Shown one piece after another: positions 1-42,630 of a stretch of DNA of 42,715 bases. How positions within the stretch are numbered: position 1 is the first letter of the stretch; the number at the start of each line of letters is the position of its first letter. This stretch comes from a virus. The stretch spans positions 1-42,715 of the IMG/VR virus record IMGVR_UViG_3300047440_000309. The stretch is one strand, 5' to 3'. A program made the position numbers and the translations under genes. Under the pieces are notes generated by a model, which searched no databases, was not told the DNA's origin, and was given only the letters and a program-made list of their open reading frames with translations.

Positions 1-97
1 GCCCAAGAGTGGGAATACAGGTGGTCACCCTGCGCCCGGCCGTGCGCGACTAGCGCGACAATCTCACCGCAAAGCTGATCGTATTCGCGTTTAGCAT
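1..97 (-). pseudogene. Left-end variant of the small leftward gene, reading frame broken
   Basis: This is the left-end counterpart of the intact 51-codon gene at 42475-42630. The leader motif and first ATG (at 97) are kept, but the 25-bp core replaces the normal 5' coding part. Translation from the ATG gives a peptide that stops after about 15 codons. The frame encoding the shared C-terminal part (GEIVALVAHGRAQGDH) is open further upstream but has no ATG, GTG or TTG before the next stop. The window edge cuts the copy off before its stop codon. It may be a disabled allele or an assembly chimera. Confidence 0.5.
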
Positions 98-101
98 CGC
101 T

Positions 102-110
102 TGAGCATCC
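102..110 (-). promoter_or_regulatory. GGATGCTCA leader motif, leftward copy
   Basis: Read on the minus strand this is GGATGCTCA followed by AGCG and ATG. It is the leftward-facing copy of the motif that precedes seven plus-strand genes. The same copy appears at 42635-42643, in front of the intact leftward gene. Confidence 0.75.
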
Positions 111-134
111 CTTATTGGCTAGTAACTAAGACCC

Positions 135-163
135 TATCTAATGGCCCATGCTACGCGGGTCAA
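135..163 (-). promoter_or_regulatory. Leftward sigma70-like promoter in the inverted repeat
   Basis: On the minus strand TTGACC (163-158) is followed after 17 bp by TAGATA (140-135). This is a near-consensus pair pointing toward the small leftward gene, whose intact copy is at 42475-42630. The -10 lies in the left arm of the inverted repeat. Confidence 0.6.
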
Positions 164-208
164 TCGCCATCGCAAACTTTCTTCGTAACGCCGTTATCAA
201 CAAACCCG

Positions 209-237
209 TTGCATCCCACATACTAGGCCATTAGAAG
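209..237 (+). promoter_or_regulatory. Rightward sigma70-like promoter in the inverted repeat
   Basis: TTGCAT (209-214) is followed after 17 bp by TAGAAG (232-237), with the -10 in the right arm of the inverted repeat. It points at the early genes from 282. Its -35 lies about 45 bp from that of the leftward promoter, so the two polymerase sites are back to back. Confidence 0.55.
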
Positions 238-269
238 GGTCTTAGTTACTAGATACGAACACAGACAAG

Positions 270-278
270 GGATGCTCA
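270..278 (+). promoter_or_regulatory. GGATGCTCA leader motif before the gene at 282
   Basis: GGATGCTCA with 3 nt to the ATG at 282. The GGA may act as a weak Shine-Dalgarno sequence; the internal ATG is out of frame with the gene. Confidence 0.75.
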
Positions 279-281
279 CTC

Positions 282-557
282 ATGATCCATTACCGCACCT
301 TAAGGGAACGCGCCGAAGCCGCGCGCTGGCGCCGGTTCCACAAGGCCGAAGCGCTCATTCGCGCGGCCGGTTGCTGCGACGCGGGCCACGGCCACAATGC
401 CCAGGTTTCCCGCGATTACGGCAAAGCATGGCCTCGCGTGGACTATGCGAAGCTCGACTCGGGGATGCGCCTAATGCACGGCCAATTCCGCGCCACCGCA
501 TGGCTTTCGGCGCTCTATACGCGCCTTGGCCCGTTCGCCTTCAATTTCGAGGCCTAG
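282..557 (+). CDS. Small early protein, unknown function
   Basis: 91 aa, the first gene of the rightward early run. I do not recognise the family. It is rich in Arg and Ala, carries a Cys-Cys pair near residue 31 followed by His-rich GHGHN, and has no membrane segment or signal peptide, so it is probably cytoplasmic. The ATG at 282 is chosen because GGATGCTCA lies 3 nt upstream, as at six other early genes; the overlapping frame that starts at 272 inside the motif has poor codon use. The downstream gene begins 5 bp after the stop, so the two are probably co-transcribed from the promoter at 209-237. Confidence 0.75.
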   Translation: MIHYRTLRERAEAARWRRFHKAEALIRAAGCCDAGHGHNAQVSRDYGKAWPRVDYAKLDSGMRLMHGQFRATAWLSALYTRLGPFAFNFEA

Positions 558-561
558 GGCT

Positions 562-747
562 GTGACCGCCTATCAGCAAGGCTACGCTATCGGCCTGCGG
601 GCGCGAATTGCTCGCATCCCCAGGTTCGCCGAACCCGGTGACCGGGCGCGCTGGCAATCCGGGTTCCTTGACGCGTCGCAGGCGCGCCGCGCGGCCGAAT
701 TGACCCGCGCGAACCCTTTTCGCTTTTTCTCTCAATCCGACGCCTAA
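562..747 (+). CDS. RMF/CrpP-like small protein
   Basis: 61 aa from the GTG at 562, five bases after the previous stop. The N-terminal half reads YQQGYAIGLRARIARIPRF and then RARWQSGFLDAS. This spacing of GY-x-x-G, R, P and RW-x-x-G-F/W resembles ribosome modulation factor, the small protein that dimerises 100S ribosomes in stationary phase, and the related CrpP fold. RMF is about 55 aa, so the length fits. Function in this phage is inferred: it could alter host ribosomes early in infection. The match is by eye and has not been tested against a profile. An upstream in-frame start at 526 would lie inside the preceding gene and is less likely. Confidence 0.6.
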   Translation: MTAYQQGYAIGLRARIARIPRFAEPGDRARWQSGFLDASQARRAAELTRANPFRFFSQSDA

Positions 748-763
748 CCGCGTTCACCGAACA

Positions 764-772
764 GGATGCTCA
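764..772 (+). promoter_or_regulatory. GGATGCTCA leader motif before the gene at 775
   Basis: GGATGCTCA with 2 nt to the ATG at 775. Here the ATG inside the motif (766) is in frame and could give a three-residue extension. Confidence 0.75.
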
Positions 773-774
773 AA

Positions 775-1164
775 ATGAACCATGCTCAATTGATCGCCCA
801 TATGGGCGAAGTCGCTAAACCCGTAATCGAAGCCTATTGGACCGATTTCACCCATGATGCGCGCCTGATCGCAGACGCGCCGCGCGGGTCAACCTTCCTT
901 TGGGCGCCCTACAAACACGGAACGCGGGTTATCGTCCTAGGGCGCGGCGAGCGGCCGAACATTCGCGCCGCGTCGATTTTCAGCGCTATGCAGGACAACG
1001 CCAAAACGGCTAGCGATACCCCGCTCGCGTGGCATTGCCTGCGGGTGGAAGGCGACGACTCCGCGATGGCGCTATGCACGGCGGATGAAGCCTGCGCCGA
1101 AGCATGGAACGCGACCCGCAAAGCGGAATGCGACCCGCGCCACATTTCCGAACTGAACATGTAA
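775..1164 (+). CDS. Early protein, unknown function
   Basis: 129 aa, soluble, family not recognised. It has aromatic-rich patches (YWTDF near residue 21, TFLWAPYKHGTRV around 40-52) and a Cys-containing C-terminal half. The start at 775 is chosen because it keeps the spacing of the GGATGCTCA leader seen at other genes; the in-frame ATG at 766 is part of that motif. It is followed by a hairpin and a new promoter region, so it probably ends the first early unit. Confidence 0.75.
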   Translation: MNHAQLIAHMGEVAKPVIEAYWTDFTHDARLIADAPRGSTFLWAPYKHGTRVIVLGRGERPNIRAASIFSAMQDNAKTASDTPLAWHCLRVEGDDSAMALCTADEACAEAWNATRKAECDPRHISELNM

Positions 1165-1166
1165 CC

Positions 1167-1271
1167 GCCAAAACGTCGCACCCTCACCGCGCATTTTTTT
1201 CGCGGTGAGGGTTGACGCGCCCCACATAGTCTATAAGTTACCTCTTGCGGCCTAGGTAAGCCGCTTAACCG
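1167..1271 (+). promoter_or_regulatory. Early leader region with U-loop hairpin and candidate promoters
   Basis: A perfect 11-bp stem (1181-1191 with 1201-1211) encloses a 9-nt loop of seven Ts; the T-run lies in the loop, not after the stem, so this is not a standard terminator. Downstream are TTGACG (1212) with TATAAG (1232, short 14-bp spacing), and TTGCGG (1245) followed by CCTAGG, as in the cassettes at 2779 and 4096. The 13-mer GCCAAAACGTCGC (1167-1179) recurs at 41463-41475. Which -35 is used is unclear. Confidence 0.5.
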
Positions 1272-1293
1272 GGCCTCGCGCCCACCCTCTCTA

Positions 1294-1302
1294 GGATGCT
1301 CA
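1294..1302 (+). promoter_or_regulatory. GGATGCTCA leader motif before the DUF932 gene
   Basis: GGATGCTCA with 3 nt to the ATG at 1306. The motif's own ATG is out of frame and would give a competing overlapping reading frame. Confidence 0.75.
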
Positions 1303-1305
1303 AAA

Positions 1306-2220
1306 ATGACCTACGGTTTTCAACAACAGTTCAAGCAAGTCCGCTTCGGTTCTGGTGCTACGATCCTGAACGCCCGCGACAGCGAAGGCCTTTCCCTCGA
1401 CCTGATCGCAGCCCGCGCCCCTTCGGTGTTCGCCACCGAAGCGCACGAATCCCGCTCCGCTCGTTACGAATTCCTCGACACGCGGGCTGTCATGGAAGGC
1501 CTGATTTCCAACGGCTTCCGGGTGTTCGAAGTCCGCCAAGGCGGTTCGCGCATCGAAGGAAAGCGCGAATTTACGAAGCATATGCTTCGCCTTCGCTACA
1601 TGGGCGAGAGCGGCGCGGGCGCATTGGTGCGGGGTAACGACCGAATCTTGCCTGAAGTCGTCATTACGAACGCCCATGACGGGACCGCATCATGGCAAAT
1701 GGGCGCGGGCGTGTTCCGCATCGTCTGCGCTAACGGCCTGATCGCTGGGGATATGTTCGATTATACCCGCATCCGCCATAATCAGGCGGGACCGCAGCAA
1801 GTTATCGAGGGCGCCTATCGCGTTATCGAGCAATTCCCCCGCATGATCGACGGCGCCCACAACATGGGCGAAATCGAGCTTAAGCCGGAAGAGTCGGCCG
1901 TGTTCGCCCGCGCCGCGCTTCAACTCCGGTGGGATAACCCGGAAGCCGCTCCGGTGGCGGCCGAAGCCATCCTGCGCCCGAAGCGCCGCGATGATATGCG
2001 GTCTGACCTGTGGACAACCTTCAACGTCGCTCAAGAGCACATTTTGCGCGGTGGTGACCAGTACCGCCACAGGTCGGAAAACACCGGCCGCGTGTCCTAT
2101 CGTCAGACCGGAGAAATCCGCTCGATTGACGATACGTCGAAACTGAACCGCGCCTTGTGGACCCTGGCCCAAGGCATGGCGGACATTAAGAGCGGCCAAG
2201 GCCTTTCGCTCGCCGCCTAG
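1306..2220 (+). CDS. DUF932 domain protein
   Basis: 304 aa. The body matches the DUF932 family found on phages, plasmids and integrative elements (YfjQ/YafZ-like): an N-terminal region around residues 1-100 with RYEFLDTR, then a central block near 130-165 with the typical FRIVCANGLIAGD signature, where family members have a conserved C-x-NG. The biochemical role of DUF932 is not established; links to plasmid maintenance and anti-defence have been suggested for relatives. Length is usual for the family. The ATG at 1306 follows GGATGCTCA. It is the largest gene of the early region and is set apart by its own leader, so it is probably strongly expressed. Confidence 0.8.
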   Translation: MTYGFQQQFKQVRFGSGATILNARDSEGLSLDLIAARAPSVFATEAHESRSARYEFLDTRAVMEGLISNGFRVFEVRQGGSRIEGKREFTKHMLRLRYMGESGAGALVRGNDRILPEVVITNAHDGTASWQMGAGVFRIVCANGLIAGDMFDYTRIRHNQAGPQQVIEGAYRVIEQFPRMIDGAHNMGEIELKPEESAVFARAALQLRWDNPEAAPVAAEAILRPKRRDDMRSDLWTTFNVAQEHILRGGDQYRHRSENTGRVSYRQTGEIRSIDDTSKLNRALWTLAQGMADIKSGQGLSLAA

Positions 2221-2288
2221 CCCTTCACACGCGGGGGCGGCGCTTCGGCCGTCCCTGCCCTTCCCTGGCCGCGTGTCGGCCCTTCTAT

Positions 2289-2297
2289 GGATGCTCA
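2289..2297 (+). promoter_or_regulatory. GGATGCTCA leader motif before the gene at 2304
   Basis: GGATGCTCA with 6 nt to the ATG at 2304, the longest spacing among the copies. Confidence 0.7.
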
Positions 2298-2303
2298 AAC
2301 CCT

Positions 2304-2777
2304 ATGACCCAATATCCCGACCTGACTCCCGAACAATCGGCCGCGCTTGAGGCCTTCGCAGAGGCGAACACGCGACCCGGTAAAAACTGGCGCGATACCC
2401 TTTGCGAAGGGTGGATGCGCGCGGCCTATCCTGGCCCGCTTCAACAGGTCCGAAACCGCTATGGCGGACTCTGGCTTACGACCGTTTACGCCTATGGCTG
2501 GCGCGCCAGCCTGCCCGAGTGGGCGCGCCCCACATTCGACGCGAGCGGCGCTGTCACGTCGCACCCTCTGCCCGGCAATGTCCGATGGTCGGCCCTCGCA
2601 TTCGACCCGCCCGCGATAGGCGCTCGCGTGGACTGCGGCGCGCGTCTGAAGTGTGGCGCGGTCACCGGCTACTTTGTGCAGGATGGCTGGCTAGGCCTGA
2701 TTGTTCGCCTTGATACGGCGCTCGAAAGCGGCTCGATTTTGGTTCACGTCTTCGGCGCGGAATGCCGCCCGGTCTGA
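2304..2777 (+). CDS. Early protein with LQQVRNRYGGLWL motif, unknown function
   Basis: 157 aa, soluble. Residues 8-60 (TPEQSAALEAFAEANTRPGK, then WRDTLCEGWMRAAYPGPLQQ and a VRN-x-x-G-x-x-WL block) resemble a small protein family common on alphaproteobacterial plasmids and prophages, of unknown function. The C-terminal half (about 105-157) alternates hydrophobic and polar residues like a small beta-barrel. The ATG at 2304 follows the GGATGCTCA leader. Frames on either strand through the same DNA lack this leader and coding character. Confidence 0.7.
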   Translation: MTQYPDLTPEQSAALEAFAEANTRPGKNWRDTLCEGWMRAAYPGPLQQVRNRYGGLWLTTVYAYGWRASLPEWARPTFDASGAVTSHPLPGNVRWSALAFDPPAIGARVDCGARLKCGAVTGYFVQDGWLGLIVRLDTALESGSILVHVFGAECRPV

Positions 2778-2778
2778 C

Positions 2779-2843
2779 CTGACAGAATGTCGCACCTAGA
2801 TCGTAAGTTAACTCTTGCGGTCTAGGTGGTGACCTGCCATAAA
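2779..2843 (+). promoter_or_regulatory. Early promoter cassette B with CCTAGA/TCTAGG hairpin
   Basis: Bases 2779-2796 (CTGACAGAATGTCGCACC) are identical to 4096-4113 and contain the small inverted repeat GACA-gaa-TGTC. A 9-bp hairpin with one G-T pair (2795-2803 with 2818-2826) overlaps the -35 TTGCGG (2815-2820); CATAAA follows after 17 bp (2838-2843). The layout equals that at 4096-4159, suggesting a shared operator-promoter cassette. Confidence 0.55.
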
Positions 2844-3059
2844 GGGGTCAGACCAGACGCGGCTAGAGGGCAAACACCCACCGCGAAAAGCTTTCTAGGG
2901 GCGAGCGGCCTAGGTCGAGCCGGGGCGACTTCCCCGGCGCTCTAACCGGGTAGCGACCTACCCCGCGCGCTCGGGATAGGTCGCCGGGGGGGTATTCGCC
3001 AGTGGCAGAGACCCGGCCCCTAGGACGCGAAGCCGGACTCACCCGGCCAGCGTAACGCA
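2844..3059. other. Non-coding leader region with strong hairpin
   Basis: About 215 bp without a convincing gene. It holds a 13-bp near-perfect stem (2953-2965 with 2972-2984, one mismatch, 6-nt loop), a smaller GCCGGGG/CCCCGGC hairpin just upstream, and several CTAG tetramers including CCTAGG at about 2907. CTAGGACGCG at 3020-3029 recurs at 42161 and 42450. It is probably the untranslated leader of the transcript that starts near 2850. No tRNA features (T-loop, CCA end) were found. Confidence 0.5.
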
Positions 3060-3066
3060 AATTGAA

Positions 3067-3075
3067 GGATGCTCA
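3067..3075 (+). promoter_or_regulatory. GGATGCTCA leader motif before the gene at 3077
   Basis: GGATGCTCA with 1 nt to the ATG at 3077. It decides the start: a TTG at 3062 in the same frame reads through the motif and is rejected. Confidence 0.75.
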
Positions 3076-3076
3076 A

Positions 3077-3598
3077 ATGTCCGCTTGGATTGTTTCAGAT
3101 ACCCACGTTCGCTTGATGGTGACCGGCGCGATTGCGCTCGATATCCACAACCGAATCCCGCTTCCGCCGCGCGCCATGCTAGAGCGCCACCCGCGCGCCT
3201 TCGCCGACCTGCTAAACAGCAACATCGCCAATATGACGGGCGTGCAATGGGCGAAGGCCTTTCCAACCGAATTCGGCCGCGCCTTGATCCTGGCGAATTA
3301 TGACAGCGTGGACGCGCTGCGCCCCCGCGACGCAGGGACAGAGGCCGAAACGCTGGCGACCCTCCTCGACTATCGCCACGCCGAAACGAAGGCCCCCGCG
3401 CCCACCGTAATCGCCGCGTGCGACTGCTACAGCTATCAAGCGTGCGAAGTTTCCGATTGGGATTCGGCGTGGGCGAATAAGGCCTGCGACATGCTCCGCG
3501 AGGCCGCAATTCACGAAGTCACGAAGGGTCAGCCGTGGGGAATTCCTGACGGTTACCGCGCCCCCGGCGCGCCTGCCCTCGCCCTTGTGAAAGGCTAG
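3077..3598 (+). CDS. Early protein, unknown function
   Basis: 173 aa, soluble, family not recognised. Residues 1-30 contain VSDTHVRLMVTGAIALDIHN; a later part has CDCYSY near residue 116 and a C-terminal PWGIPDGYRAPGAP. The DTH triplet recalls metallophosphoesterases, but no further motif of that fold is present, so no function is given. The ATG at 3077 follows the GGATGCTCA leader. It is the first gene of a run with those at 3603 and 3866, which follow with a 4-bp gap and an ATGA overlap. Confidence 0.75.
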   Translation: MSAWIVSDTHVRLMVTGAIALDIHNRIPLPPRAMLERHPRAFADLLNSNIANMTGVQWAKAFPTEFGRALILANYDSVDALRPRDAGTEAETLATLLDYRHAETKAPAPTVIAACDCYSYQACEVSDWDSAWANKACDMLREAAIHEVTKGQPWGIPDGYRAPGAPALALVKG

Positions 3599-3602
3599 GA
3601 CT

Positions 3603-3869
3603 ATGAACAATCAACGCCGCAAGGTGCTGGCGAAAATCAGCATCCGCTTGCAAGAGCTTCAAGGGGTTATCGACTCCCTGGCTGAAGACCTCGAATATGA
3701 GCGGGACGCCGAACAGGAAGCGTTCGATAACCTGCCCGAGTCCCTGCAAAACGGGGACAGGGGTATGGCGATGCAGTCCGCAATCGAGGCCTTGGACAAC
3801 GCCTGTAGCGCCCTATCCGAATTCGACCCCAGCGCCCTAAGCGGCGAAATCGACGGGGCGTGCGAATGA
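3603..3869 (+). CDS. Small conserved phage protein with coiled coil and FDNLPESLQ motif
   Basis: 88 aa. The first 45 residues form a predicted amphipathic or coiled-coil helix (RRKVLAKISIRLQELQ onward), followed by QEAFDNLPESLQNGDRG and a second helix with AIEALDNACSAL. This arrangement (EEQEA-[FY]-NLPES-x-Q, then a helix) is widespread in small phage and prophage proteins of Gram-negative and Gram-positive hosts, whose role is not known. It starts 4 bp after the preceding stop and overlaps the next gene by ATGA. Confidence 0.8.
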   Translation: MNNQRRKVLAKISIRLQELQGVIDSLAEDLEYERDAEQEAFDNLPESLQNGDRGMAMQSAIEALDNACSALSEFDPSALSGEIDGACE

Positions 3870-4099
3870 AAATCGAATGCACCCCCGCCGAAGCCGGGAG
3901 CCTCCGCGCGGCCTGCCGCTCATTCGAAGAAAAGCTAATCGAGGCGATAGCGAGCCGTCAGGCGCAGCTAGACCCCGAATGGAAGGCGGCGCTTAAGGCC
4001 GATCAAGCGAACCTGCAAAAGGCGATTCGGCTGCTGTCCTGTATCGCCGCGTGCATGGGCGAGGCGAAGCCGGGCGATAAGGTGACCGCCGAAAACTGA
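3866..4099 (+). CDS. Small helical protein, unknown function
   Basis: 77 aa from the ATG at 3866, which overlaps the preceding stop as ATGA, implying translational coupling. It is almost wholly helical and charged, with Cys at about positions 5, 17, 59 and 63. A GTG two codons upstream is possible but loses the overlap pattern. No family is recognised. Its stop codon lies inside the 18-bp repeat that begins the next promoter cassette. Confidence 0.75.
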   Translation: MKIECTPAEAGSLRAACRSFEEKLIEAIASRQAQLDPEWKAALKADQANLQKAIRLLSCIAACMGEAKPGDKVTAEN

Positions 4100-4159
4100 C
4101 AGAATGTCGCACCCTAGGCCAAAAGTAACCGTTGACCTTTTGGCCTAGGTCTTTATAAC
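4096..4159 (+). promoter_or_regulatory. Early promoter cassette C with 13-bp CCTAGG hairpin
   Basis: The 18-mer shared with 2779-2796 is followed by a perfect 13-bp stem (4113-4125 with 4137-4149, 11-nt loop), each arm containing CCTAGG or its complement. TTGACC (4132-4137) and TATAAC (4154-4159) with 16-bp spacing form the best sigma70-like promoter of the early region. The hairpin covers the -35 and the spacer, so as duplex DNA it reads as a palindromic operator across the promoter. Confidence 0.7.
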
Positions 4160-4190
4160 AGTCTTACGCGCTGCGGCGCACCACTTAGAC

Positions 4191-4199
4191 GGATGCTCA
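4191..4199 (+). promoter_or_regulatory. GGATGCTCA leader motif before the gene at 4202
   Basis: GGATGCTCA with 2 nt to the ATG at 4202, about 35 bp downstream of the TATAAC promoter element. Confidence 0.75.
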
Positions 4200-4201
4200 A
4201 C

Positions 4202-4366
4202 ATGACCCATTGGACCTCGGAACGCGTGTCAGCGGGAACCCCCGCTTACAACGCAGCGAAGGCGGACGCGGCGACAATCGCCCGTCAGAACCCCGGAACC
4301 CGCGCCGAATGGCGGGATGAATATAACGATTACAGCGTGCGCGGCGTGTGGGCGGTGGTGTCGTGA
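4202..4366 (+). CDS. Small protein, unknown function
   Basis: 54 aa beginning MTHWTSERVSAGTPAYNAAK and ending RGVWAVVS. Support comes from position: the ATG lies 2 nt after a GGATGCTCA leader, itself downstream of a good promoter, and the stop overlaps the GTG start of the next gene (GTGA). The protein is soluble and rich in Ala, Arg and Trp, with no recognised family. It is the first gene of a coupled run that reaches the recombinase at 5033. Confidence 0.75.
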   Translation: MTHWTSERVSAGTPAYNAAKADAATIARQNPGTRAEWRDEYNDYSVRGVWAVVS

Positions 4367-4665
4367 CTATTCAAGAGCGCATCGCCGCCTTCCCGGCCGC
4401 AATCGCGGTTGACCTTCGCCCGCTCTGTGCAGAGGCCCCTTACGGCGTCGTGAAGCCGGGCGAGCGCGGTTACACCCCGATATGGTCGCCGCTGTCGCTG
4501 GCCGAACTGAGCAAGATTACGGCCGATGTTCACCACACCCGCGAACCGACCGAACAGGAACGCGGCGCGGCTTTGTTCGGCTCGATGTTCGGATGGGAAG
4601 CGCCCGGCGCAGACCCGGCGCTGTACGACCTTGAAGGCCGCTTCAAGCGGAAGGGGGGGCGGTGA
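4363..4665 (+). CDS. Early protein, unknown function
   Basis: 100 aa from the GTG at 4363, which overlaps the previous stop as GTGA; a GTG five codons earlier keeps the frame but lacks the coupling. The protein is soluble, with GYTPIWSPLSLAELSKI in the middle and a basic tail (RFKRKGGR). No domain is recognised. It is part of the tightly packed early run transcribed from 4132-4159. Confidence 0.7.
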   Translation: MTIQERIAAFPAAIAVDLRPLCAEAPYGVVKPGERGYTPIWSPLSLAELSKITADVHHTREPTEQERGAALFGSMFGWEAPGADPALYDLEGRFKRKGGR

Positions 4666-4698
4666 CTCTGTTTAACGGCCGAACTGGTTTGGAGCGGC

Positions 4699-4818
4699 AT
4701 GGCGCGCCACGCGCCCGGCGCTATCGAGGCCGCGAAGAAGACGCTTCGCCCGAGTGACCGCCCTTACCTATTCGCCCGCGCCGACGATAACGACAACTAT
4801 AAGCAAGGCGCGGGCTAG
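4699..4818 (+). CDS. Very small protein, unknown function
   Basis: 39 aa beginning MARHAPGAIEAAKKTLRPSD and ending NYKQGAG. The ATG is preceded by GGAG with 4-nt spacing, and the stop overlaps the next start (TAGTG). The competing GTG frame at 4662 overlaps the previous gene as GTGA but gives 31 aa of Arg-rich sequence and has no ribosome site. The region is coding on balance; the exact frame is less sure. Confidence 0.5.
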   Translation: MARHAPGAIEAAKKTLRPSDRPYLFARADDNDNYKQGAG

Positions 4819-5036
4819 TGGGTCCAATCTGCCGCCAGATGCTAACCCGCCTCGCCGATGATCCTACGGGCGAAGGCGGGTTTAGGGTCGGCGAAATCAG
4901 CGGCGCGGCTGTCCGTCATGGGTGGGTCTGCGCCGTGTGGGAGACCCGAAAGATTCGCTTCTACAAGATCACCGAAACCGGCCGCGCGGCGATTGTCGCA
5001 TGGCGCGCCAAGCAACCGAAGGAACCCCGAACGTGA
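4818..5036 (+). CDS. Small winged-helix-like protein
   Basis: 72 aa starting at a GTG that shares a base with the previous stop. The N-terminal half (CRQMLTRLADDPTGEGGFRV) resembles the first helices of a winged helix and the C-terminal KIRFYKITETGRAAIVAWRA resembles the wing and last helix of small MarR/PadR-like phage proteins. DNA binding is inferred from this pattern only. Its stop overlaps the recombinase start (GTGA), so it may be co-expressed with it and regulate it. Confidence 0.65.
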   Translation: MGPICRQMLTRLADDPTGEGGFRVGEISGAAVRHGWVCAVWETRKIRFYKITETGRAAIVAWRAKQPKEPRT

Positions 5037-5686
5037 GCCGTCGAACCCCCGCACCCGCCACGCCTGCCGCGCCTATTCGCAGCGGCCCCGCGCGCTTTGC
5101 TTACTACCGTGTGTCGTCGTCCGATCAGACGATAGACGCGCAGCGGCAAGAGCTAGGCGGCGGACCCTACGACCGCGAATTCACCGATGAAGACACTAGC
5201 GGGACGATCCCGATGGCGCAGCGGCCGGGCTTCGCCGCCCTCTTGGCTGCGGCGCGCGAGGGTGACACCCTTTATGTCGCGGCGGTTGACCGGCTGGGGC
5301 GGGACGCTATCGACGTTCAATCAACCGTCCGCCGCCTGATCGATGCGGGCGTTGTGGTGGACGTGAAAGGCCTTGGACCTATCGGCCGGGGCGTGGGCGA
5401 AATTATTATTGCCGTGCTGGCGCAGGTCGCCGACCTCGAACGCCGCCGCATCCTGGCGAGAGCGAACGCAGGCCGCGACGCAGCCCGCGCGAGCCTCGCC
5501 GCGACCGGCCGCACACATCGGGGCGCGGAAAGCCTCGGGCGACCTCGCGAGGTTGACCCCGAAATGGTCGCCGCGTGGCGGCTTCAGAACAACGCCAGCA
5601 TATCGGCGACCGCGCGCCACTTCGGAACGTCTGACACTACCGTCAAGCGGTGCTGCGCCGCGTTCCGGCCGAAGGTGGCGGCTTAA
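5033..5686 (+). CDS. Serine recombinase of the resolvase/invertase family
   Basis: 217 aa from the GTG at 5033 that overlaps the previous stop; longer upstream starts run through the preceding gene. It has an unusual Pro/Ala-rich N-terminal extension of about 20 residues, then FAYYRVSSSDQTIDAQRQEL with the catalytic Ser at about residue 28 and Arg 26, followed by VDRLGRD (Arg 87, Arg 90) and a long helix. A C-terminal helix-turn-helix lies near 176-208 (VDPEMVAAWRLQNNASISAT onward). Family members form a phosphoserine link to DNA and resolve or invert sites. Here it could resolve multimers or switch DNA; no invertible segment was seen. It is distinct from the tyrosine integrase at 19897. Confidence 0.9.
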   Translation: MSRRTPAPATPAAPIRSGPARFAYYRVSSSDQTIDAQRQELGGGPYDREFTDEDTSGTIPMAQRPGFAALLAAAREGDTLYVAAVDRLGRDAIDVQSTVRRLIDAGVVVDVKGLGPIGRGVGEIIIAVLAQVADLERRRILARANAGRDAARASLAATGRTHRGAESLGRPREVDPEMVAAWRLQNNASISATARHFGTSDTTVKRCCAAFRPKVAA

Positions 5687-5707
5687 CTGTCAACTCATTT
5701 TGCGTTA

Positions 5708-5716
5708 GGATGCTCA
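5708..5716 (+). promoter_or_regulatory. GGATGCTCA leader motif before the gene at 5718
   Basis: GGATGCTCA with 1 nt to the ATG at 5718. TTAGGATGCTCA sits in the 31-bp gap after the recombinase gene; no clear promoter is visible in so short a gap. Confidence 0.75.
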
Positions 5717-5717
5717 G

Positions 5718-5918
5718 ATGACCACCATAGAAACAGCCGCGACGGAACGAGATGCGCGGGTGCGCCAACTCATCGCCGACGCCGAACGGAAGCGGCAGGA
5801 AATCGCCTTGGCGCCGCGTCAGGTGTTCGCGCAATTGCTCGCGGCCTTCGCTGCGGCAGGGGTCGCGGCTGGCGCGCTTATCAGCGCCGGAATCGCAATC
5901 GGGCGGCTGCTGCTGTGA
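5718..5918 (+). CDS. Small membrane protein with one C-terminal transmembrane helix
   Basis: 66 aa. Residues 1-36 form a charged, probably coiled helix; residues 37-64 (FAQLLAAFAAAGVAAGALIS onward) are a Gly/Ala/Leu-rich membrane segment with a single Arg near the end. This is typical of a tail-anchored inner-membrane protein with a cytoplasmic N-terminus. Function is unknown; superinfection exclusion, membrane targeting or an accessory lysis role are possible. The start follows GGATGCTCA and the stop overlaps the next gene (GTGA). Confidence 0.75.
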   Translation: MTTIETAATERDARVRQLIADAERKRQEIALAPRQVFAQLLAAFAAAGVAAGALISAGIAIGRLLL

Positions 5919-6136
5919 TCTGTTTTCGGGATACAACTTTCTGCACGGCTCGCTGCGCCACGGTGCGGTGCGCGCGGCGGTGGACGCCCGAGCTACAGGC
6001 GAAAGCGCGGGCGTGGTGGGGGAAAGAAGGCGCGCCCGTCGCGTGGGCGAATTTCCAGCCTAAATGCGACGTGTACAGCCGCCCGAGCGGTCAGTTTGAC
6101 GAACGGGCGCTACAGCCCGGCGAGGCGAATTCCTAA
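5915..6136 (+). CDS. Cysteine-rich small protein
   Basis: 73 aa from a GTG that overlaps the previous stop. Five Cys (residues 3, 10, 14, 19 and about 51) spaced C-x6-C-x3-C-x4-C suggest a metal site, followed by RRWTPELQAKARAWWGKEGA. I have seen similar small Cys/Trp proteins in alphaproteobacterial phages but know no function. It is the last gene of the rightward early run, ending 5 bp from the stop of the convergent terminase gene, with no terminator between them. Confidence 0.7.
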   Translation: MICFRDTTFCTARCATVRCARRWTPELQAKARAWWGKEGAPVAWANFQPKCDVYSRPSGQFDERALQPGEANS

Positions 6137-6141
6137 CGACC

Positions 6142-7728
6142 CTACCCGGCCCACACGCTAGGCCCGCCTGCGGTCTTTCTGAGGCCCTTACGCCATGCCC
6201 TGTCCTCGTCACTCGCGCGGCTCGGCATGGCGACCGGGGACGCAAATGTCAGCGCCAGTGAATCCCATCCATCGGGGCTGCGTAGGCCTCGCTTGCGTAT
6301 ATCTTCCTTGCTTTCGAGCAAAAGGTATTGCCGCATATCGTACTTAAAGCCCGGCGCGACCGCATCGGCGTGAAGCGCGTCGTCATCTGGAATATCCGCG
6401 CCGCCCTCATCTTCTAACCACTCGCGCGAACGCATCCACATTTCCGCGCGTCTATTCTTCGGGCCGGGGATAATCTCTCCGCGTTCGTTCGTCTTCGGTT
6501 GATCCTGCGGCGACCCGCCGAAGTTTACTGAAACGACTAGATCGCTGTACGGCTCGCCATAGTCGCGCAGGATATCGATGACCCCCGCACCCATGTTCCC
6601 AACGTCAATGAACACCGCTCGCGGGCTGTACTGATCGATAACGGCCTTAACCCAATTCGCGCCCTCAATCGTGTTCAGGCGATAGCGCCGCTCGACCTTC
6701 AGAACCTTGCGGCCCTGGCGCCAGCAAATGGCAAAGCTGTCGTCACCGAACCGCGCCGGATCGACGCCCACCACAAGCCCGCCGATGGCCTCACAGGTGC
6801 GCTTGCGAGCTTCTAGAACCAGGCGAGTCGGGATGAAGGATTCATGGCCTGTGGATTGGAAGGCCATCGCCGCCGACGATGGGTATTCCTGATTGAACAA
6901 GGCCACGTCTTTTAGTTCGGCCATCTTCACGCGCCGCCATGCCATTTGCGGCAAGGTCAGCCCGTACATTCGGGCTTCGTGTTCTTCCTCGTCCGTCAGT
7001 TCAAAGCCGACCGGGGGCGTGCGCTGGTACTCGTCAGACACGAACCAGGGAACGAAGATGGCCTGCCAGTCGCCCTCGCCGTTTTCGGCCATGCGCCAGC
7101 GTTCATGAAACTCGCCGCCGATCCCGTTCGCGGTGGACTCTAGAATGGCCTCGGTTCCCGGTAGGTCGGGAAGGGCTTGGACGACGCCCGCGAAGTGGTC
7201 GGCCGCGTTCGGCCAGAAGGCGACCTCGGAACCGTGGAAGCATTGGATGGTCTTAGACCGCCCGACCGCCCGCGTGCCTGCCGTGCCGACGCTGTAGCCG
7301 CTATCTGCGGCCGGGAATGACAGTTCCTTGGCGTTGGACGCGCCCGCCTTCAGCCGTTCCTCGGCGCTCATGTACTTGTGGAACCGATCGACCATGTTGA
7401 AAAGGTTATCGGTCGCATCCTGTTCGTGGGTCAGGATGAAGACTTGGGTTCCCATGAAGAATTGCGTTCGGTGGAAGAAGCGAGAACCTATATAAGTGGA
7501 CACGCCTTGTTGACGTGCCTTGAGAACTAGCGCCCTAACCTTTCCGGTTTTGGCTTTCTGTTCTTCTAGCTTTGCGTGGATGATGCGCTGTGCGTTGTTA
7601 AGCTTGAAACGCTCTAGCGTCGCGGCCTTAGTCTTCAGGATCAGGCAATCGGCCGTGAACTTGAGGTAGTCGTCTTTCCAGGCCTGCCGCTGGCCTAGCT
7701 TTTCGGTCTGGTAAGCGACCCCTGCCAC
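6142..7728 (-). CDS. terL: Terminase large subunit (packaging ATPase and nuclease)
   Basis: 528 aa from a GTG. It docks on the portal, cuts concatemeric DNA and pumps it into the prohead. The ATPase half carries the Walker A-like KARQQGVST (residues 70-78) and the coupling motif ESTANG (197-202). The RNase H-like nuclease half has GVDPARFGDD (Asp 323), AVFIDVGNMG (Asp 375) and a late Asp near 489 in GWDSLAL, the three metal ligands. Length is normal. It follows the small subunit with a 4-bp gap. It is the last gene of this leftward run, about 30 kb away from the portal, an unusual split of the packaging module on the linear map. Confidence 0.95.
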   Translation of the reverse strand: MAGVAYQTEKLGQRQAWKDDYLKFTADCLILKTKAATLERFKLNNAQRIIHAKLEEQKAKTGKVRALVLKARQQGVSTYIGSRFFHRTQFFMGTQVFILTHEQDATDNLFNMVDRFHKYMSAEERLKAGASNAKELSFPAADSGYSVGTAGTRAVGRSKTIQCFHGSEVAFWPNAADHFAGVVQALPDLPGTEAILESTANGIGGEFHERWRMAENGEGDWQAIFVPWFVSDEYQRTPPVGFELTDEEEHEARMYGLTLPQMAWRRVKMAELKDVALFNQEYPSSAAMAFQSTGHESFIPTRLVLEARKRTCEAIGGLVVGVDPARFGDDSFAICWRQGRKVLKVERRYRLNTIEGANWVKAVIDQYSPRAVFIDVGNMGAGVIDILRDYGEPYSDLVVSVNFGGSPQDQPKTNERGEIIPGPKNRRAEMWMRSREWLEDEGGADIPDDDALHADAVAPGFKYDMRQYLLLESKEDIRKRGLRSPDGWDSLALTFASPVAMPSRASDEDRAWRKGLRKTAGGPSVWAG

Positions 7729-7732
7729 GCGG

Positions 7733-8239
7733 TTACCGCAGAAGCTTCACGGCGTCGTCTTGCGACAGGTAACCGACATTCTGCCCGTCATCGATTTTGT
7801 CGCCCCACGTCGCGGGGTCTAGCCGCTTGGCGACCCGCTCGCGAAAGTCGGCCCTGATCTTCGACCGCTGCACCGAAACCGGGTTAGGCAAGAGCCGGTC
7901 TTCAATCTCGATCAGGTCATTTCTGGCGTCGTCTACAATCTCGATAATCTGATCCATGAACATCGCGGCGCGCATCCGCTGCGCCATCATGAAGACCCGG
8001 TTGAAGTCCTCATGCTGCACCCGCCACCGGAAGATTGTCGTGAAGTGCGGCCAGCCCTTTTCTTTGCAGACGGTCATCAGGCCGCGCGGGTCGCTGGCGA
8101 CCGACTCGCAAATCGCCTCGGCAAGCGCGGGCGTGTATTTCGTTATGCCGCGCCGATCACGCGGCGGCGCCGGGTCGCGGAACATCACGCGCGCCGGGTC
8201 TAGGACGACCAAATTGGAGTCGTCTTCCTCGTCAGACAC
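7733..8239 (-). CDS. terS: Terminase small subunit (Sf6 gp1-like)
   Basis: 168 aa from a GTG, directly upstream of terL. Residues 35-90 (TKYTPALAEAICESVASDPR, then GLMTVCKEKGWPHFTTIFRW) form the N-terminal helix-turn-helix of the Sf6/P22-type small terminase, which recognises the packaging start and forms a ring. The remainder is the helical oligomerisation domain, with SVQRSKIRADFRERVAKRLD and PATWGDK, a common end block of this family. Sf6-type subunits usually go with headful packaging, which would fit a circularly permuted genome. Confidence 0.92.
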   Translation of the reverse strand: MSDEEDDSNLVVLDPARVMFRDPAPPRDRRGITKYTPALAEAICESVASDPRGLMTVCKEKGWPHFTTIFRWRVQHEDFNRVFMMAQRMRAAMFMDQIIEIVDDARNDLIEIEDRLLPNPVSVQRSKIRADFRERVAKRLDPATWGDKIDDGQNVGYLSQDDAVKLLR

Positions 8240-14401: not shown

Positions 14402-14623
14402 TCACGCCGCCGTCCGCGAGCGCTGGCGCCGGGTCGCGGCGGCAAGCGCCAACTCGGGCAGGCTCGCCATGTCGTGCTGCGCGATCAACAGCCAATATTC
14501 GCCGGGGATGGAGTCGCGCTGCCACCACGACTGAACCGTGGTGGGTCGTTGCGACAGGCTCAGTTTTTTCGCGACCGCTGTGACGCCCCCGGCGTCGTGG
14601 ATCACGTCTCGATGAGTACGCAT
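14402..14623 (-). CDS. Cro/YdaS-like helix-turn-helix repressor
   Basis: 73 aa. Residues 5-45 (DVIHDAGGVTAVAKKLSLSQ, then TTVQSWWQRDSIPGEYWLLI) match the small Cro/YdaS-type fold: AVA-KKL turn, recognition helix with TVQSWW, then the RDSIPGEYW segment that follows the helix in this family. The C-terminus is basic. Being first in the leftward replication run and facing a region with inverted-repeat operators, it is the best candidate for the lysis-lysogeny switch. No CI-like protein with a cleavage domain was found opposite it. Confidence 0.8.
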   Translation of the reverse strand: MRTHRDVIHDAGGVTAVAKKLSLSQRPTTVQSWWQRDSIPGEYWLLIAQHDMASLPELALAAATRRQRSRTAA

Positions 14624-14698
14624 GGCCGGAATCCATGCGCCGCGAAAATTTACTTGGCAAGATCGAAATGAGTGTTAATCGAATCGCGTTGTTACCGA

Positions 14699-14730
14699 TT
14701 TCTGGTGTTCGGGTGTCCGGTTACCAGAAA
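14699..14730. repeat. Operator-like inverted repeat TTTCTGGT...ACCAGAAA
   Basis: Two perfect 8-bp arms 16 bp apart, centre to centre about 24 bp, which would place the half sites on nearly the same face of the helix. They are a likely target of the Cro-like protein or another phage regulator. Confidence 0.65.
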
Positions 14731-14734
14731 GAAT

Positions 14735-14753
14735 TTGGTGCGTTCTGCACCAA
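14735..14753. repeat. Operator-like palindrome TTGGTGC-N5-GCACCAA
   Basis: Perfect 7-bp arms with a 5-bp spacer, 4 bp from the neighbouring inverted repeat. Size and symmetry suit a dimeric helix-turn-helix repressor. Confidence 0.7.
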
Positions 14754-14834
14754 CGCATTTTGCATTGAGGGTTTTTCCTTGGATTACCTAGAGAACGCCC
14801 CCACGAACAACGCAATTTGCAGGTGCATAGTCAG

Positions 14835-15107
14835 GTGAAACCCTTGCCTCGCACCCTCGTTCTTCTTGATACCGCAGACTGGTCAGACGCCATTTTGACC
14901 GGCCGCGACGGCATTGAAGATTTGGCACATGGAGAGCAAGGCCTTCGAATTACGTATGAATTCAGCGCGAGCGGCCCGTCGCTGATCCTCAACGGCCCTG
15001 ATGGGGAGGTCATTTTGTTCGGTATTGCGGAAATCGTTTATGCAACGAACGCCCTCGCTCATGGGCGGTCTATCGCGGAAACCGACGTTAAGAAGAACAG
15101 GCTCTAG
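14835..15107 (+). CDS. First gene of rightward accessory run, unknown function
   Basis: About 90 aa, starting with VKPLPRTLVLLDTADWSDAI if the GTG at 14835 is used; TTG 14817 and GTG 14823 are in frame, and none has a good ribosome site. The protein is soluble, with an alternating beta pattern (LRITYEFSASGPSLILNGPD) and a basic tail. No family is recognised. Facing the Cro-like gene across the operators, it holds the place where a lysogeny gene is expected, but it shows no helix-turn-helix. Confidence 0.65.
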   Translation: MKPLPRTLVLLDTADWSDAILTGRDGIEDLAHGEQGLRITYEFSASGPSLILNGPDGEVILFGIAEIVYATNALAHGRSIAETDVKKNRL

Positions 15108-17024: not shown

Positions 17025-18146
17025 ATGACACAGACCGACCTTATGACGATGGCCCGGTTTCTCGTGCTGCCCGGCGCGAGCGAACTGCTAGAGGCCTTTT
17101 CGCAGATACCACCCGGCCGTCTGCGCGAAAGCGCCGTGGCCCACGTCCAGGCTATCGCAGAGACCTATTCCAGCGCTCCGGTCGAACAGCAAATGCCTGA
17201 CCCGCTGTTGACAGCCGCACAGGGCGCACCGGAGCCCGTCAGGGTCATTGAGACGCCGCGCGAGACCCTACCCGCCCTGACCCCGATTGAAGCCCTCAGT
17301 AACCGCCGCAGGGGCGTTCCGAAGTCCGACGATCCAGACGTGAAGGCTATCGAGCTAGCGCTTCAGGGTATGTCGCCGCAGAACATCGCCGTCGAACTGA
17401 ACATGCCGATTTCATCGGTCATGTGGGCCAGGAAGAAGGCCCTGCGCGCCGGGCTGATTTTCCCGAAAATCGTTGGTCGCCGTGGCGGGTCGAAGAAGAA
17501 GAAGAAGTTTCAGGCGAGCTTCGCCATGACGCTTGATGATCTGGATATGCGCGGCATCGGGATTGCTACGGCGGCTGCGTCGCGGCGCGGCCTGACCTTG
17601 GAGTCCTATATCGAGCGACGGCGCATCACGGTCGAAATGGCCCAGGACGGTCGCCATATCCAGGCGATTATAAACGCGGTGAAGGAAGACGAACCGACCA
17701 TCCGTTCATGGCTGAATAAGGCTCGCGCGGCCGGGCTTCCGGTTCCTTATGTCGCCGTGGATTACGGCATGGCGAACGTCGCGCCGGTTGAACCGGAGCC
17801 CGAGCCCGAGCCTGAACCCGAGGCGATAGTTCCGGTGCAAAGCTCTGTGGTGGTGAACCTGCGGTCAGCGGGGATAGACCCGCCGCCGCGCCATCGCGCC
17901 TTCTCCGTCTCGCTAGAAGGCCTTAGCGGGACGCAGGTTTCCGCCATCGAACGCGGCGCGGCGCTACTGAGTGTCAGCGTCGAGGAATATCTAGAGGTTC
18001 GCCGCCAAGCGCTCGAAATGATGCGGAACGGCATCGATACAGGGACCGTCGCTAAGACCCTGAACATTACCCCCAAAATGTCTTCGAACTGGCGTCAGCG
18101 GGCTATCGACGCCGGGGTTCTTATCGTCCCGCGCAAACAGGCCTGA
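17025..18146 (+). CDS. Multi-HTH DNA-binding protein with duplicated domain
   Basis: 373 aa. Three helix-turn-helix units can be seen: HTH1 at 104-147 (AIELALQGMSPQNIAVELNM); repeat A at 166-241, ending with a helix-turn-helix (IRSWLNKARAAGLPVP); and repeat B at 292-369 (TGTVAKTLNITPKMSSNWRQ). Repeats A and B align over about 75 residues, including L-x-SYIERRR versus VEEYLEVRR and the ARAAGLPVP versus AIDAGVLIVP ends, so they arose by duplication. A Lys-rich stretch (157-161) and an EP-repeat linker (256-266) separate the units. It probably binds several operator half sites at once. It is the largest gene of the accessory run. Confidence 0.8.
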   Translation: MTQTDLMTMARFLVLPGASELLEAFSQIPPGRLRESAVAHVQAIAETYSSAPVEQQMPDPLLTAAQGAPEPVRVIETPRETLPALTPIEALSNRRRGVPKSDDPDVKAIELALQGMSPQNIAVELNMPISSVMWARKKALRAGLIFPKIVGRRGGSKKKKKFQASFAMTLDDLDMRGIGIATAAASRRGLTLESYIERRRITVEMAQDGRHIQAIINAVKEDEPTIRSWLNKARAAGLPVPYVAVDYGMANVAPVEPEPEPEPEPEAIVPVQSSVVVNLRSAGIDPPPRHRAFSVSLEGLSGTQVSAIERGAALLSVSVEEYLEVRRQALEMMRNGIDTGTVAKTLNITPKMSSNWRQRAIDAGVLIVPRKQA

Positions 18147-19716: not shown

Positions 19717-19914
19717 ATGCCCCCCGTCGAGATTGCCGAGAAACTTGCGTACACCGTGCCCGAGGCCGCGAAGGCTATGGGCGTCGGCCGCACTACCATG
19801 TGGAAACAGGTTCGAGAGAGAACCGTGTCATCCTTCAAGTGGGGCGGCCGAGTCCTTATCGAGAAAGACGAACTTCAGCGGCAGATTGACCGCGCATCAG
19901 GCCGCCATCCTTAG
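19717..19914 (+). CDS. xis: Excisionase-like MerR/HTH_17 protein
   Basis: 65 aa. Residues 11-56 follow the excisionase-family winged helix: YTVPEAAKAMGVGRTTMWKQ (helix-turn-helix), VSSFKWGGRVLIEKDELQRQ (wing and last helix). Such proteins bend att DNA and turn the integrase toward excision, or act as AlpA-like activators. The gene is tail-to-tail with the integrase and overlaps its 3' end by 18 bp, an arrangement that lets each transcript interfere with the other. The name is assigned by domain and neighbourhood. Confidence 0.8.
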   Translation: MPPVEIAEKLAYTVPEAAKAMGVGRTTMWKQVRERTVSSFKWGGRVLIEKDELQRQIDRASGRHP

Positions 19915-21132
19915 CGTCGGCGCCACCACCGCAGGCGCGGCGCAGTAGACCGAATAGGCCTTCATCATGGGGCGGCGAAGCTCTAGAATTTTGGTCCGCT
20001 GGTAGGCTGAAGACGTTTCGTCGCCGACCGCATGGGCTAGCTGATAATCGACCCACTCGCGGCTGTAGCCCGCTTCCTTGGCCCAATCGGCGAAGGTCGA
20101 ACGGAAGCCGTGAACCGTAGGCTCGCCAAGCTTGAAATGCTGAAGCATCTGCCAAATGGAATTCGGCGTGTAGTGGGCTTTCTTCCGGCCGCGCGGGTTC
20201 GGAAAGATCAGGTCATCCGGCCGGGGCTTCCGGTGACGCGGCCGGGCGTTTAGCAGAACCCGCAACATCGCCCGCGTAATCGGCCGCTCGCAAGCCTCGC
20301 CGTCCGTATTGTCCTGCCCCTTCAGGTGGGCGGCTGGCACGGTCCAGACCATGCGCCGAAGGTCGATTTCCTTCCATTGCGCCTGACACACTTCGTTAGA
20401 TCGGCTGGCCGAAAGGATGATCCATTCGAGCGCCAGATTCGACATTTGGTCCTTCACCCGCAGCCGCGCCAGGAAGGCCGGAAGCGCCGGATAGGGGAGC
20501 GCGGGATAGTGCTTCACCCGGCGCTTGGGGAGCTTCTTCAGCTTATGTTGCAGCGGCCCCTTTTTGAGCGCCGGGTTCGTGTCATCAGCCGCGATAAGGC
20601 CGTCAGCCTGCGCCGCGAACCACACCGTTTCGATTGCCCGCCGCAGCCGTTGGGCGGTGGGCTGACGATCCAGCCAATAAGGCCGTAGGGCGTCGGCGAC
20701 GTGATCCACTTTGACCGCCGCAGGGTGCATATCTGATATCGCCCCTATCTTCGTGGTCATGTCCCGAACGAAGATTTCGAGGCCTGACTTCGAACCAAGG
20801 CGCGCGGCGTTGGCTTCAGCGAATGCGCCAAAGGTCACCTTGCCGAGGCCTTGAATTTTTCCCTTGCGCTGGTCCTTCGGATTGAACCCGCCGCGCACCT
20901 TCAGCCGCGCCGCATCCCGCAGGTCGCGGGCGTCGTCAGGGTCTTCAAGCCCGTCCTTCACATGCCCCAGGACCATCGTTTGCTGGTCGCCGCGCAGCGG
21001 ACAGGTGAACCGATAAGTCCAGAAGCGACGGGCGCCTTGGACGTTGAGAGTTAGGCCGTTGCCGTCCGGTAAGGTCGCCGACGCCGACAACACCTGTTCG
21101 CGGGTCAAAGCGCCACGGCGCGTTCTTTTCAT
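19897..21132 (-). CDS. int: Tyrosine-recombinase integrase (P4 type)
   Basis: 411 aa. It has the N-terminal arm-binding layout of P4-like integrases (LTLNVQGARRFWTYRFTCPL), a core-binding helical domain (about 100-185), and a catalytic domain with Arg 244 (SASRSNEV), Lys 271 (AHLKGQD), His 341 and Arg 344 (HGFRSTFADWA), His 367 (QLAH) and nucleophile Tyr 377 (SSAYQRT). All key residues are present, so it should be active. It inserts phage DNA into the host chromosome. The region directly upstream (21133-21422) is full of repeats and is the likely attP. Temperate life is therefore well supported. Confidence 0.95.
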   Translation of the reverse strand: MKRTRRGALTREQVLSASATLPDGNGLTLNVQGARRFWTYRFTCPLRGDQQTMVLGHVKDGLEDPDDARDLRDAARLKVRGGFNPKDQRKGKIQGLGKVTFGAFAEANAARLGSKSGLEIFVRDMTTKIGAISDMHPAAVKVDHVADALRPYWLDRQPTAQRLRRAIETVWFAAQADGLIAADDTNPALKKGPLQHKLKKLPKRRVKHYPALPYPALPAFLARLRVKDQMSNLALEWIILSASRSNEVCQAQWKEIDLRRMVWTVPAAHLKGQDNTDGEACERPITRAMLRVLLNARPRHRKPRPDDLIFPNPRGRKKAHYTPNSIWQMLQHFKLGEPTVHGFRSTFADWAKEAGYSREWVDYQLAHAVGDETSSAYQRTKILELRRPMMKAYSVYCAAPAVVAPTLRMAA

Positions 21133-21148
21133 CTAGTGTCTCCTGTCT

Positions 21149-21171
21149 AGTCACTAAAATGGTCACTAGTT
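21149..21171 (+). repeat. 23-bp direct repeat, copy 1
   Basis: Identical to 21361-21383. It contains GTCACTA twice (GTCACTAAAATG, GTCACTAGTT), so each copy has two half sites 11 bp apart. It lies 17 bp upstream of the integrase start codon. It may be an arm-type Int site or an operator for int. Confidence 0.85.
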
Positions 21172-21360
21172 TTGTGCCGATATGTTCCGACACGGAGAGA
21201 CACCCGGCGACACCGGCTAGTCAATATGCGTTTGAATTAAAACGCGTTTCCGACACAGGGCGACATGATGCGAACAGCTTTTTTTAGTTGGAGGTGTTTC
21301 GGTGTCTTCCGCCGAAAACGCCTGACTTTTCAAAGCCTTTCAGCCCCAGGATTTCCAGAC

Positions 21361-21383
21361 AGTCACTAAAATGGTCACTAGTT
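21361..21383 (+). repeat. 23-bp direct repeat, copy 2
   Basis: Identical to 21149-21171, 212 bp apart start to start. It lies 40 bp from the end of the gene at 21423. Confidence 0.85.
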
Positions 21384-41543: not shown

Positions 41544-41634
41544 AGTCGGGAACAGTCGGGATTAGTCGGGGTCCACCTGTGGCGACCATTGGCGTCCAGT
41601 CGGGTTTAGTCTGATCCAGTCGGGTTTAGTCGGG
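41544..41634 (+). repeat. 10-bp-phased AGTCGGG array
   Basis: AGTCGGG occurs at 41544, 41554 and 41564, then at 41598, 41608 (variant AGTCTGA), 41618 and 41628. Within each cluster the starts are exactly 10 bp apart, about one helical turn, so all sites face the same side of the DNA. The clusters are 34 bp apart. This looks like binding sites for a multimeric regulator or like replication iterons. It lies upstream of the candidate late promoter and downstream of the gene at 41666. Confidence 0.85.
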
Positions 41635-42007: not shown

Positions 42008-42474
42008 GGGTTCCTGCTCCGATGCGTGGGACTCCGGTCGAAACCGCCTACCCCCGGTGGGGGTGGGGGTCGGTTTTTCCGAACGCTGTTCAGCGAACTG
42101 CGCTCGCCTCGTCTAGCCTGCGTCACCTAGCGCAGCGCACCCCATGCGAGTCGCCACACGCTAGGACGCGCAACGCATATTGCCTAGGTCACAAGAGGGT
42201 CGCGAGGGGACATAGCCCAAAACCCTAGGGCAGAACCCCGAATGGCCTAGGTTGCGCCCCTAGGTCCGAAGGCCTGCGTTATGACCCAATGGGCGCAGCA
42301 TGGGCGCGGGATGCGAGGTCGCAGCCTATCAGGCGCGCCGCTTCGTTCCTGCGTCATGTATGCACGCGAGGCCTAGCGCGTTTGAGCGCCATGCACGCAG
42401 CGAATATCCCCCGCTCGCCACCGGACAACGCGGAGAACACGACGCGCCACTAGGACGCGCCGCGCGCTGCGGTC
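42008..42474. other. Long CTAG-rich region without clear genes
   Basis: About 470 bp. CTAG occurs ten times between 42113 and 42475 (about two expected at this GC), five of them as CCTAGG. CTAGGACGCG occurs at 42161 and 42450 (also at 3020). On the minus strand two tiny coupled frames can be read (GTG at about 42440 giving 28 codons, then ATG at about 42356 giving 36 codons, joined by ATGA), without ribosome sites. A C/G-rich hairpin-like tract (CCCCCGGTGGGGGTGGGGG) lies near 42050. The region may be a leader or a packaging or replication site. Confidence 0.45.
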
Positions 42475-42630
42475 CTAGGCTTTCGAGCGCTCGCCGATGG
42501 CCCAAGAGTGGGAATACAGGTGGTCACCCTGCGCCCGGCCGTGCGCGACTAGCGCGACAATCTCACCCTCTGTCATGCGCTCCGTTTGCACCGTGGCATT
42601 CGGAAACCGCGCCGCCCATTGTTCCCGCAT
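42475..42630 (-). CDS. Small leftward early protein, intact copy
   Basis: 51 aa (MREQWAARFPNATVQTERMT, EGEIVALVAHGRAQGDHLYS, HSWAIGERSKA). The ATG at 42630 is preceded by GGATGCTCA and 4 nt, the only leftward use of this leader, and by the TTGACC/TAGATA promoter whose left-end copy is at 135-163. Codon use fits the phage and the frame is open throughout. No family is recognised; the length and the helical middle recall small regulators. The left end carries a broken version of the same gene. Its stop TAG is part of a CCTAGG. Confidence 0.7.
   Translation of the reverse strand: MREQWAARFPNATVQTERMTEGEIVALVAHGRAQGDHLYSHSWAIGERSKA

Follow-up and report, generated by a model that had tools for sequence, protein, structure and literature searches.

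Genes and features at the divergent junction

The DNA examined here, termed the window, is the whole of IMG/VR virus record IMGVR_UViG_3300047440_000309 (42,715 nucleotides). Its gene content (integrase, portal, major head protein and terminase) is that of a temperate, podovirus-like phage, and the closest named relatives of its portal include phages of Paracoccus and Rhizobium. Among genome contigs searched for a host, a single proteobacterial MAG carried a matching portal (50%), which is insufficient for assignment. Given these portal relatives and a -10 element of the form TAGAA that fits the Caulobacter consensus, the host is probably an alphaproteobacterium.

Near the start of the window two small genes diverge from a short intergenic region. 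The features of this locus are as follows.

42475 to 42630, minus strand: leftward gene in the copy at the window's end (51 amino acids; 54% identity with the portal-side gene in relative L037)
50 to 97, minus strand: leftward ORF in the copy at the window's start (15 codons, a broken version)
102 to 110, minus strand: GGATGCTCA, start-associated leader ahead of the leftward gene's ATG at 97
119 to 146, minus strand: left arm of an inverted repeat, CTAGTAACTAAGACCCTATCTAATGGCC, 28 bp, containing the leftward -10 and predicted start site
120 to 128, strand not applicable: palindrome TAGTNACTA spanning the predicted leftward start (near 128), a candidate operator
135 to 140, minus strand: leftward -10, TAGATA, within the left arm
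158 to 163, minus strand: leftward -35, TTGACC, 17 bp from the -10
209 to 214, plus strand: rightward -35, TTGCAT, weak, 17 bp from the -10
226 to 252, plus strand: right arm of the inverted repeat, GGCCATTAGAAGGGTCTTAGTTACTAG, 27 bp, containing the rightward -10 and predicted start site
232 to 237, plus strand: rightward -10, TAGAAG, within the right arm
243 to 251, strand not applicable: palindrome TAGTNACTA spanning the predicted rightward start (about 244), a candidate operator
270 to 278, plus strand: GGATGCTCA, start-associated leader of the rightward gene (ATG at 282)
282 to 557, plus strand: first rightward gene (91 amino acids)
42627 to 42715, strand not applicable: second copy of 94 to 182 (left arm, leftward promoter and part of the loop) in the contig-end overlap

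Among the fetched loci, a relative of the leftward gene was found only in L037, and none of the first rightward gene was found in any. The two ends of the contig overlap, with 1-68 identical to 42501-42568 and 94-182 identical to 42627-42715, which places the site within a circular map, where the contig happens to be broken; the "genome junction" of the initial annotation is thus a contig break and not a physical genome end. Between the overlapping blocks, 25 bp in the start copy take the place of an unrelated 58 bp in the end copy, and the leftward gene therefore exists in two versions, the start copy being broken. These versions (1-93 versus 42501-42627) reflect either population variation or assembly. 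The overlap and its variant block could also suggest that the repeat is itself an artefact of assembly at a contig end, but its arms differ by an indel, the loop itself is unrepeated and the same layout occurs in the independent contig of L038, making this reading scarcely credible. Between the leftward small gene and a gene of 113 amino acids lie approximately 450 bp (42020-42470) with no called gene and many CTAGG/CCTAGG words.

Inverted repeat and promoter elements

The arms at 119-146 and 226-252 are reverse complements of each other apart from one 1-nt indel, lie 79 bp apart on opposite strands, lead to two genes and occur once in the window. An outer block, TGAGCATCCCTT/AAGGGATGCTCA, also pairs. 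The extended repeat (102-146/226-278) gave an alignment score of 51 compared to a maximum of 31 among 5000 first-order Markov shuffles of the region, and when the window was examined in tiles, that of the repeat scored 49 and the runner-up 28. The large inverted repeat with arms of 27-28 bp described in the initial annotation is therefore real.

The positions of the hexamers agree with what had been described from the sequence, namely a -10 element in each arm and a -35 element in the loop at a spacing of 17 bp. Both strands thus carry outward-facing primary-sigma hexamers with a spacing within 16-18 bp, the rightward -35 being weak. With only three of six matches, TTGCAT is much poorer than the leftward TTGACC, which argues against equal output in the two directions. 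Matches to the Escherichia coli hexamers (8/12 leftward, 7/12 rightward) are unremarkable, as 59 and 413 sites in the window reach these respective thresholds, approximately the Markov expectation, and a generic promoter scan of the window had neither junction promoter among its listed sites. Support for the promoters consequently comes from relatives. A hexamer matrix was trained on nine promoters of relatives, none of them from the window, and used to score 85,372 positions; the leftward promoter ranked second (tied with its own copy at 42696) and the rightward one 19th. Only these two of eight leaders tested had a strong matrix match upstream (14.7 and 8.2, with background values of 6.4 at 95% and 8.9 at 99%). 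The training promoters were chosen by pattern, so the matrix favours that form of promoter, and the two -10 boxes, both lying in one repeat, are partly dependent on each other.

The -10 form TAGAAN and the spacing agree with the sigma-73 consensus of Caulobacter crescentus, TTGaCg(c/g)-x11-14-GCtAxA(a/t)C, as quoted in PMC5324124. The likeness to alphaproteobacterial primary-sigma promoters (Caulobacter, PMC5324124) consists of a TTGAC -35, a TANA(A/T) -10 and compatible spacing; the consensus differs in having C as the sixth base of the -10, where the window has G or A.

A start-associated leader shared across the phage

Each arm leads to a leader and an ATG, as first described, with GGATGCTCA at 110-102 and 270-278 ahead of the start codons at 97 and 282. 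This leader is a property of the phage as a whole. Ten exact copies are present in the window against 0.18 expected, and nine of the ten have a start codon within 8 nt; the other copies include those at 764, 1294, 2289, 3067, 4191 and 5708, all on the plus strand. GGATGCTCA is similarly present in L037, L042, L044 and L062, ahead of many starts in relatives. It exceeds the length that a Shine-Dalgarno sequence needs and is common to the clade. A search for an RNA hairpin in the leaders found none, the leaders being unstructured (z of +1.4 to +1.6), and an Rfam search returned no match.

A word lying a few nucleotides from several starts and nearly absent elsewhere is what defines a start-associated sequence (SAS), and GGATGCTCA behaves in this way. 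The leader, used throughout the phage, can be likened to the SAS described in cluster K mycobacteriophages, which are temperate and likewise have a short, conserved, asymmetric word a few nucleotides from the starts of many small non-structural genes. The word itself differs, being GGATGCTCA in the phage of the window and GGGATAGGAGCCC in cluster K. Some cluster K SAS also carry imperfect 17-bp inverted repeats upstream, forming extended SAS whose arms mostly lie 4-13 bp apart before a single gene and which are recurrent. The repeat of the window, by comparison, has arms 79 bp apart on opposite strands, serves two divergent promoters and occurs once; it was therefore not classed as an extended SAS, a type that calls for 17-bp repeats with 4-13 bp between their arms ahead of many SAS.

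As GGATGCTCA is phage-wide, it makes no special tie between the two divergent genes. Of the promoter, leader and start that had been proposed as duplicated in opposite orientation, the mirrored promoter pair stands, while leader and start are not peculiar to the pair, with GGATGCTCA preceding at least six other starts. The proposal that the two 5' ends are nearly identical is true of the first 9-11 nt or so of the predicted RNAs and of the AAGGGATGCTCA block, but the leaders between these differ in sequence and length.

Conservation of the promoter pair in relatives

Relatives were sought with five proteins or with alignments. The clade is small, consisting of L037, L038, L042/L044 and L062, with portal identities to the phage of the window of 83%, 74%, 69% and 71%, respectively (portal searches). 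A DNA search of window positions 1-8000 against 50,697 phage records gave no match, and a search of IMG/VR for the exact 17-bp arm gave a single chance match, within a coding gene of L036. Searching for promoter plus leader identified ten stretches, the true ones being confined to the L037 and L038 contigs and the rest attributable to chance, bar a possible case in L060.

A divergent pair was found in L037 (6889, minus; 6996, plus) and L038 (2184, minus; 2313, plus). The junction of L037 has TTGACA-17-TAGAAG and TTGACG-17-TAGAAC, and that of L038 has TTTACC-17-TAGAAG and TTGACC-17-TAGAGG, in each case facing outward and followed by GGATGCTC and a start codon. On both strands, the window, L037 and L038 thus share one architecture, being a TTGAC-like element, 17 bp, TAGA, 28-38 nt, GGATGCTC and a start. 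L042/L044 have only one promoter and L062 has neither. This conservation, together with the matrix ranks of second and 19th, upholds the original reading of the site as a divergent promoter. The genes flanking the pair are mostly non-homologous between the window, L037 and L038, so the promoter cassette outlasts its neighbours. Further TTGAC-17-TAGAAC promoters are present in L037 (3484, 4098 and 5413, minus strand) and L038 (54 and 1759, minus strand), mostly with CTAACT next, and lie ahead of genes that carry the leader; in these relatives, several small genes seem to be served by individual promoters.

Comparison of the arms, which the initial annotation had put forward as a check, gave a mixed outcome. 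The inverted repeat is recognisable in L038 (score of 43), whereas L037 has none above threshold, and L042/L044 and L062 have no counterpart and lack the pair. As L037 has the closest portal found and is without the repeat, mirror symmetry as such is not required. Another account takes both promoters to be ordinary ones that share no regulator. One arm would recently have been copied in inverted orientation, or converted, and the resulting repeat would have no function as such. This account is compatible with a divergent promoter pair and competes with the proposal of an operator. The stretch after the -10 scores 17 between the two arms of the window, whereas the leftward arm, aligned with the arm at the same position in L038, reaches only 5, as would fit copying between arms; L037 retains the promoters and not the repeat. 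Moreover, the leftward 17-bp spacer of the window is closest to the opposite-side promoter of L038 (14/17; 9/12 outside the shared end, approximately 0.002 after four comparisons), as expected from cross-copied arms. Against it, both arms of L038 also retain TTAGTNACT directly following the -10, with the same change of its central base (T in both arms of the window, C in both of L038). We regard this account as a serious contender, falling a little short of an even chance. Arm against arm, the stretch after the -10 scores 6 in L038, and the early-side arm of L038 scores 13 against each arm of the window. Together, the arm and spacer similarities hint at exchange between arms, though alignment of the whole loop gave no significant inversion.

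Exchange could also be catalysed, with the arms acting as recombination sites for a serine recombinase encoded in the same gene cluster (4922-5686), which would invert the loop and exchange the strong and weak -35 boxes between the two directions. This resolvase-family enzyme is encoded nearby and is conserved, and the spacer resemblance to the opposite side of L038 would fit. However, the recombinase is kept in L037 (82%), L044 (63%) and L062 (69%), all of which lack such a repeat, so inverted sites are not conserved along with it as they would be in an invertible segment of this kind. In addition, loop alignment was not significant when inverted (p 0.47) and weak in the same orientation (p 0.06), and the loop has the same orientation in both contig-end copies. 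This explanation is very unlikely.

Candidate operator and regulation

The best operator candidate is the short palindrome TAGTNACTA, which lies over both predicted start sites. Elsewhere in the window it is found only upstream of the integrase gene, within a 22-bp repeat present twice, so a shared binder is possible, and one regulator may act on both promoters through TAGTNACTA. No regulator match was found among the genes flanking the pair. Genes elsewhere in the window that may encode DNA-binding proteins are those at 14405-14620, 17025-18146 and 19897-21132. The lockstep early expression and single regulator proposed initially exceed this evidence.

The 22-bp repeat, ACTAGTGACCATTTTAGTGACT, at 21147-21169 and 21360-21381, may represent integrase arm sites or operators. 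It contains a related word, TTAGTGACTAG, which would suit a site for some other process (replication origin, integrase arm sites or packaging) with an incidental resemblance to promoters, as would AGTCGGG repeats at 41544-41634. The latter are arranged in 10-bp steps followed by an A/T-rich tract and may mark a replication origin. About 0.1 one-mismatch 11-mer matches are expected per window (scaled), making the integrase similarity weak evidence, and two relatives whose flanking genes are different retain the order of -35, 17 bp, -10 and leader on each strand. We consider such a process an unlikely explanation of the repeat.

Divergent phage early promoters with shared operators are of the lambda PL/PR type. 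The pair described here resembles PL/PR in that both promoters are of the primary-sigma type, face away from each other and have like sequences around their start sites; it differs in that no repressor gene lies between the promoters and that the gene for a Cro/YdaS-like HTH protein, at 14405-14620, has no palindrome beside it. With neither an adjacent repressor gene nor its operators at both promoters, the site was not classed as a lambda-type early control region. As no TAGTNACTA sites occur near 14405-14620, the arms were also rejected as operators of the Cro/YdaS-like gene. That gene adjoins a divergent intergenic gap, and 14405-14835 is probably the true immunity region.

A probable bidirectional promoter for accessory genes

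Beyond the observed repeat, promoter-like elements, leader and conservation of the pair in two relatives, we infer from sequence that the promoter pair is active and early, early expression being plausible. The favoured explanation, held with good though incomplete confidence, is a predicted divergent primary-sigma pair, active early, in a temperate podovirus-like phage whose host is probably an alphaproteobacterium. In this arrangement the loop would hold the -35 boxes, and the mirrored arms the -10 elements, start sites and initial transcribed sequences. Transcription by host RNA polymerase would run rightward into a series of small genes (from 282 to approximately 5.9 kb) and leftward into one small gene lying upstream of the structural genes. 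The two transcripts would have almost identical short initial sequences, and the phage-wide GGATGCTCA leader would bring each to its start codon.

That TAGTNACTA is bound at both start sites by a dimeric regulator, from phage or host, which would thereby keep the arms alike, is a more tentative suggestion that we would not bet on. More speculative, and rather improbable, is a fuller scheme for the bidirectional promoter in which exchange, by gene conversion or loop inversion, would maintain the likeness of the arms, one putative dimeric regulator would see the same site at both starts, and flanking genes would be swapped between lineages around a fixed cassette.

Such an arrangement is common, and the pair illustrates it with unusual neatness; it is not a new kind of control system. 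If the favoured explanation is true, a compact bidirectional promoter cassette persists while the small genes adjoining it are exchanged. Cassette and GGATGCTCA leader would together form a code for the expression of accessory genes in this uncultured phage group, one that helps in finding such genes and their start codons, while the general picture of phage gene control would be unchanged.
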